A stretch of DNA of 64,000 nucleotides. Source: Streptacidiphilus sp. P02-A3a. Lineage in GTDB: Bacteria > Actinomycetota > Actinomycetes > Streptomycetales > Streptomycetaceae. A program made the position numbers and the translations under genes. Of this stretch, positions 34,356 through 34,664 are shown one piece after another. The notes below the pieces were generated by a model that worked only from the letters and a program-made list of their open reading frames with translations, was not told the DNA's origin and did no database searches. The stretch lies in assembly GCF_014084105.1 (NCBI RefSeq), contig NZ_CP048289.1, positions 815,922 to 879,921 on the forward strand, given 5' to 3'. Every line of letters begins with the position of its first letter. Positions within the stretch are counted from its first letter, which is position 1.

Positions 34356-34527
34356 CCCGGAGCCGGTGGTCGCACCGGATGCCCACCGGGCCGAGAAGGC
34401 CGAGAAAGGGGACAGCCCCCGGGCTGCTTCCCGTCCGCGTGGGACGGGCGCCGGAGGACGGCCGGCGAGCCCGGGGGCCGGGTGGCTGCTGTTGGATTAC
34501 CACACAGTCCAAGGTTCTGCTGGGCTG

Positions 34528-34566
34528 CTAGGAAGCAGCCACCTCACTGGTCCCAGAGAAACTCAT
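34528..34566 (-). CDS. Putative 12-residue peptide with near-perfect ribosome site
   Basis: Minus-strand ATG 34566 opens MSFSGTSEVAAS, stop at 34528. Upstream is GAAAGGAGGTGATCC, complementary to the last 15 nt of 16S rRNA, ending 5 nt before the ATG. The stop lies in the inverted repeat GGCTGC-N6-GCAGCC. No gene follows in the same direction before pdxH (antisense), so it would not be a normal leader peptide. The same bases on the plus strand copy the 16S tail, so this may be a non-coding element instead. Confidence 0.3.
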   Translation of the reverse strand: MSFSGTSEVAAS

Positions 34567-34571
34567 ACTCC

Positions 34572-34586
34572 GGATCACCTCCTTTC
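34572..34586 (+). other. Copy of the 16S rRNA 3' tail (anti-Shine-Dalgarno)
   Basis: GGATCACCTCCTTTC on the plus strand equals the universal end of 16S rRNA. It lies in a 400-nt stretch without an ordinary gene (34356-34758), flanked by small inverted repeats: TTGGA-N11-TCCAA at 34492-34512, GGCTGC-N6-GCAGCC at 34523-34540 and GTGCGG-N12-CCGCAC at about 34591-34614. An intrinsic terminator follows on the same strand at 34645. Together these look like a small RNA unit. Confidence 0.45.
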
Positions 34587-34644
34587 GAGTGTGCGGCAAC
34601 TGTAAGCACCGCACACCCCGAGGGGCAACGGTATTTATTCGGCC

Positions 34645-34664
34645 TCCCCCTACGGGGGATTTTT
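34645..34664 (+). terminator. Intrinsic terminator with T tract
   Basis: TCCCCC-TAC-GGGGGA followed by TTTTT. A hairpin with a T run is rare in this GC-rich DNA. It faces the plus strand, so it would end a transcript coming from pdxH or from the interval with the 16S-tail sequence. Confidence 0.65.

Follow-up and report, generated by a model that had tools for sequence, protein, structure and literature searches.

A conserved short reading frame within the pseudoknotted fold of the Ms_IGR-5 small RNA

The rnTrpL/peTrpL and VcdRP RNAs are dual-function or leader RNAs: small RNAs with a terminator that carry a short ORF and its Shine-Dalgarno (SD) sequence. In 5' stabilizers of the aprE leader type, a strong SD near the 5' end recruits ribosomes. 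The Ms_IGR-5 RNA that we describe here shares the layout of rnTrpL/peTrpL and VcdRP. It differs from both in that its peptide is not conserved, it has no downstream operon, and the codons of its ORF form core helices. Unlike in the aprE-type stabilizers, conservation here extends beyond the strong SD to an entire ORF and to a pseudoknotted fold that covaries.

Ms_IGR-5 is a family of small RNAs without an assigned function, with members such as SLIV_16488 of S. lividans and ncMSMEG15794c of M. smegmatis, and it is expressed in S. lividans, S. avermitilis, and M. smegmatis (PMC8079986, PMC8780764, PMC10454040). The S. coelicolor homolog is possibly scr4389, to judge by gene number. These three papers do not mention a mini-ORF or members outside of the Actinobacteria, and the Rfam structure line for the family has no pseudoknot, whereas the RNA that we studied has a covarying one. 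Ms1 and the 6S-like scr3559 are likewise structured actinobacterial small RNAs that are found across the phylum, and both are abundant. Ms1 is a different gene: it adjoins HAD-hydrolase/oxidoreductase genes, it binds the core of RNA polymerase, and no mini-ORF like that of RF02471 is reported for it (PMC9130861).

The RNA gene and its neighbors

We analyzed a 64,000-nt stretch of the genome of Streptacidiphilus sp. P02-A3a (the window). An earlier note, made from the letters of this DNA alone, had equated the 15-mer GGATCACCTCCTTTC with the 3' tail of the 16S rRNA. The match at 34572-34586(+) is indeed exact, and it is the only site in the window with two or fewer mismatches (the mean for the shuffled window was 0.08). 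The 15-mer has 10 copies in the 9.33-Mb genome. Nine of these are the 3' ends of 16S rRNA genes, as told by the upstream context GTCGTAACAAGG, and ours is the only non-rRNA copy; the reversed control pattern does not occur in the genome. On the minus strand, the 15-mer reads GAAAGGAGGTGATCC, a full-length SD (the "super-SD") that ends 5 nt upstream of the ATG of a 12-codon frame, MSFSGTSEVAAS.

The earlier note was right that this interval encodes a small RNA and that it contains no protein gene. It is not free of genes, as the minus strand carries an RNA gene that Rfam recognizes (Table 1). Using cmscan, the locus scored 87.7 bits against RF02471 (the gathering cutoff is 45) and aligned to the full length of the model (1-184/184), which places it in the Ms_IGR-5 family. 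No other Rfam family reached its cutoff at this locus, and the RNA is present in a single copy in the genome. A candidate promoter lies just upstream. In 204 homologous upstream regions, the A-rich block, TTG, and TA...T are enriched at the promoter positions.

The earlier note preferred a transcript of the plus strand, in which the anti-SD would be exposed and could pair with the ribosome sites of mRNAs. The 15-mer exists, as does a plus-strand hairpin followed by T5 (3 terminator-like sites, versus 0.4 expected), but the Rfam match, the conserved promoter, the ORF, the 3' stem, and the helices that covary all belong to the minus strand. The hairpin with T5 lies upstream of the minus-strand promoter and has no counterpart in seven related loci. 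On the minus strand, 264 of 267 distinct homologs have the super-SD as GGAGGTGRTYY, which is fully complementary to 16S if G-U pairs are allowed. We consider a plus-strand RNA to be highly improbable. The hairpin probably ends read-through from pdxH.

Table 1. Features of the Ms_IGR-5 locus, in window coordinates
Feature	Position	Strand	Remarks
RNA gene, Ms_IGR-5 family (RF02471)	34407..34592	-	about 186 nt; cmscan
Predicted +1 of the RNA	near 34592	-	
3' end of the RNA	near 34407-34400	-	predicted
Promoter	34599..34639	-	predicted, read from sequence
A/T-rich block AATAAAT	34639-34633	-	above the -35
-35 TTGCCC	34628-34623	-	18-nt spacer to the -10
-10 TACAGT	34604-34599	-	candidate promoter of the RNA
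Super-SD GAAAGGAGGTGATCC	34572..34586	-	pairs over 15 nt with the organism's own 16S 3' tail
Mini-ORF	34528..34566	-	ATG AGT TTC TCT GGG ACC AGT GAG GTG GCT GCT TCC TAG; encodes MSFSGTSEVAAS
Second SD-like motif GAGGTG	34540..34545	-	9 nt before the stop codon
Helix P1a	34591-34588 / 34548-34545	-	RNA 5' end with codons 7-8; covariation
Pseudoknot PK	34554-34550 / 34459-34455	-	GGGAC, codons 5-6 / GUCCU, loop of hairpin P4
Helix P2	34543-34535 / 34489-34481	-	GGUGGCUGC, codons 8-11 / GCAGCCACC; covariation
P5, 3' terminator-like stem	34480-34468 / 34425-34413	-	covariation, fold
Hairpin P4	34467-34449	-	carries the PK loop; enclosed by P5
Hairpin with T5	34645..34664	+	between the RNA promoter and the divergent PAS/GAF gene

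The neighbors in the window are pdxH, which is convergent with the RNA (plus strand), citrate synthase (gltA) beyond pdxH, and a divergent PAS/GAF gene. A mini-ORF followed by a terminator-like stem could suggest a leader-peptide attenuator of a downstream gene. However, pdxH is antisense to the RNA, other genes lie downstream of the homologs elsewhere, and we did not find a constant co-directional gene or operon downstream. Given the varying neighbors, we rejected attenuation of gltA or pdxH in particular, and an attenuator of any gene seems very improbable. Because the neighboring genes vary, we conclude that the locus is a standalone small RNA gene of the Ms_IGR-5 family on the minus strand.

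We also rejected two other identities. The locus is not Ms1/6S, as the synteny is different (pdxH, gltA, and the PAS gene) and there is no Rfam match beyond RF02471. Nor is it scr2736 (RF02831), which the citrate synthase neighbor might suggest: there is no Rfam match to that family, and S. lividans carries scr2736 and Ms_IGR-5 as separate loci, in two Rfam families (PMC8079986).

Conservation of the reading frame

As an alternative, the earlier note had offered a minus-strand ribosome site for the 12-residue frame, and this is backed by conservation across the phylum. The frame at 34566-34528(-) is real. Across homologs, 11-15 nt or more of the super-SD match the 16S tail. Nearly all of about 266 distinct homologs have a start codon whose frame leads to a stop at a fixed position, where UAG, UGA, and UAA interchange. 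Among 53 non-redundant homologs, 42 have AUG, GUG, or UUG in frame with the conserved stop, compared to a mean of 5.8 (maximum 14) if the loop is shuffled; the sequences are related, so these counts and those that follow do not represent independent events. In a set of 114 homologs, start codons 5-14 nt past GGAGG are in frame 0 in 95 cases and in the other frames in 7 and 5 cases. Fifteen nucleotides after GAG, 112 of the 114 have a stop codon (86 UAG, 20 UGA, and 6 UAA), and in the remaining two (L116 and L119), the start and the stop are shifted together. More broadly, 241 of 263 tallied homologs have the stop 15 nt from GAG, and most of the others have it 14 nt away.

We also built a model, R1, solely from the 5' domain of the 53 non-redundant homologs. 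All 90 of the distinct R1 matches that lie outside of the model-building set keep such an ORF. If AUG, GUG, or UUG is lacking, then CUG, AUU, AUC, or AUA is found in the same position, or ACG in L049, L282, and L311 (read directly from their sequences). These weak start codons (CUG, AUU, AUC, and ACG) may make translation inefficient in some lineages. Across homologs, the mini-ORF has 10-18 codons, and among 267 distinct sequences, only L293 breaks the frame rule. In-frame starts and stops beyond chance, with interchange of the stop codons, are what we would expect of a translated small ORF. Also, ribosome profiling found reads on MS_IGR-5 of M. abscessus and M. smegmatis, although in the same study many structured non-coding RNAs showed ribosome reads as well (PMC4974804).

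The pseudoknotted fold and the encoded peptide

To identify helices, we aligned 101 RNAs with MAFFT, blind to structure, and scanned all 15,400 column pairs for covariation. The top ranks were pairs from P1a (7-61 and 6-62), P2 (73-220, 71-222, and 74-219), and P5 (237-353, 240-350, 238-352, and 243-342), followed by high-ranking pairs from the pseudoknot PK (59-258, 54-263, and 58-259); some non-pairing combinations that also ranked high are lineage effects among these same columns. P5 is also supported by pair 233-357. On alignment A1, the covariation of P1a was 0.345, versus 0.105 if shuffled and at most 0.097 if slid. In a separate count at the end position of PK, we found compensatory changes: GC 27, CG 21, TA 11, and AT 5. 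The fold of the window's RNA beat all 200 shuffles (z = -4.1). A simple hairpin beside the SD (P1b, GUCC/GGAC) can pair in most sequences, but it shows little two-sided change, and PK covaries better.

P1a, PK, and P2 all use bases of the mini-ORF, so a translating ribosome must open the core of the RNA. The GAGGTG motif within the ORF is invariant in A1. This may be due to the pairing of GAGGUG with CACC in P2 rather than to a second SD.

In some lineages (L046, L118, L218, L219, L246, L249, and L341), the RNA itself contains the 16S anti-SD sequence, as GGACCACCTCC or GGATCACCTCC, and this copy could pair with the super-SD of the same RNA. We rejected self-sequestration as a general feature: such copies are present in 27 of 283 RNAs, versus 9.4 expected (maximum 17), so it is lineage-specific at best.

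Does the peptide matter? A 12-14-residue peptide could be the functional product, in which case the RNA would be its mRNA, or possibly a dual-function RNA. Most Actinomycetota copies do have a recognizable C-terminal pattern, (T)REV(A/T)A(G/S/R) before the stop, and those of Acidobacteriota have REVADC. However, the conserved residues fall on bases that are fixed by the helices P1a, PK, and P2, residues 2-5 vary freely, and the last residue is not conserved. Furthermore, several lineages read the invariant GGAGGUG in another frame and encode unrelated sequences (GGGSS or GSGGASG), such as LHSTSGGGSS, LSDHCGGGSS, and VSESGSTGSGGASG, each ending at the stop. In these lineages, the start and the stop moved together and the stop kept the same place, which implies that it is the open frame, rather than the peptide, that is conserved. 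We found no conservation of the peptide beyond the constraint on the RNA, and we consider a functional micropeptide to be unlikely. Instead, the sequence comparisons suggest that being translated matters, rather than the peptide product.

Similarly, the RNA could be a non-coding small RNA whose AGGAGGUG bulge and C-rich loops pair with other RNAs, with an incidental ORF. It belongs to a known small RNA family, its loops are exposed, and its fold is strong. But without translation we would not expect the in-frame start, the interchange of stop codons, or the coupled frame shifts, so we doubt this explanation as well.

Distribution and proposed role

RF02471 is present in 97 of 101 genomes sampled from the family Streptomycetaceae; in the other four (G022, G034, G036, and G073), no copy was detectable. 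R1 matched 97 of 148 genomes of the class, 118 of 296 genomes of the phylum, and 30 of 42 genomes of one remote order. Since no copy was found in about a third of the genomes of the class, the RNA is not universally required.

In two genomes of the family (L094 and L097), the end of an integrated element takes the place of the RNA promoter and the super-SD. The junction coincides with the start of the mini-ORF, so it seems that the RNA gene is used as an attachment site. A gene for a large serine recombinase (Pfam Resolvase and Recombinase) starts at the junction (L390:429-2192(-) and L391:180-1958(+)).

We also scanned named genomes with a DNA pattern that fixed only the super-SD and GAGGTG, which gave at least 119 stretches. 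The matches listed include non-actinobacterial records labeled Acidobacteria, Bryobacterales, Terriglobia, Sumerlaeota, Deltaproteobacteria, Rokuibacteriota, Eisenbacteria, and Planctomycetota. Most of these loci are from MAGs, whose labels can be wrong, and L286 and L335 resemble actinobacterial sequence types. The non-actinobacterial matches have features that the pattern did not ask for: an in-frame start, a stop at GAG+15, TTGACA-type promoters, and T-tailed terminators. The Acidobacteriota set is coherent, with an upstream gene that is common to three loci. Rfam detects just one non-actinobacterial copy (L345) among the pattern matches listed, and for L326 it gave nothing credible. A match in Rhodobacteraceae (L293) lacks a fitting ORF, and we take it to be due to chance. 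Judging from these sequence features, the same architecture occurs outside of the Actinomycetota, in Acidobacteriota and others, and is mostly unseen by Rfam.

Eight Acidobacteriota copies (L288, L294, L303, L308, L314, L326, L347, and L350) have the 5' end ATCACTGAG in common. Its complement is a downstream TCAGTG(A) loop and not the ORF as in Actinomycetota. This would be an alternative pairing of the 5' end.

We propose that this is a ribosome-gated or ribosome-binding structured RNA with a super-SD, an obligatory mini-ORF, and a pseudoknotted fold. We infer this function from comparative data and consider it reasonably probable. A ribosome would be recruited at the super-SD with very high affinity, would translate the 12 or so codons, and would thereby melt P1a, PK, and P2, which form the core of the RNA. 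It might then pause or linger at the stop: with the stop codon in the A site, its anti-SD could pair again, this time with GAGGUG, which is located 8 nt upstream of the last sense codon. The RNA would thus have two states: open and occupied by a ribosome, or folded and ribosome-free. The folded form might report the availability of ribosomes by acting on some partner, or the RNA might hold (titrate) ribosomes or 30S subunits.

Another idea is that the RNA is purely a sponge, whose super-SD captures ribosomes or 30S subunits and whose ORF only clears or recycles them. It would fit that 264 of 267 homologs are complementary to the 16S tail over 11-15 nt, and that the 15-mer has no other copy in the genome outside of the rRNA genes. 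However, a sponge would need the RNA to be highly abundant, and by itself it does not explain why the ORF threads through P1a, PK, and P2 or why the P4 loop is conserved. We view a pure sponge as rather unlikely.

The Ms_IGR-5 family and its expression were already known. The conserved frame, the frame-shifted lineages, the covarying pseudoknotted fold, and the copies outside of the Actinomycetota are new: we found no description of the mini-ORF, the pseudoknot, or the non-actinobacterial members in the literature, in a search that covered few subscription papers. Because the RNA is found beyond the Actinomycetota, where the Rfam model mostly fails, the age and range of the family are probably underestimated.

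Thus, translation seems to be obligatory for a conserved RNA that is listed as non-coding, and selection seems to act on its open frame but not on the peptide, which makes engagement with the ribosome the likely function. More tentatively, Ms_IGR-5 could represent a widespread class of standalone RNAs, found in several phyla, that are translated without a conserved product. The ribosome would be the ligand that switches a pseudoknotted RNA, with the super-SD as its point of entry and a second SD to hold it at the stop.
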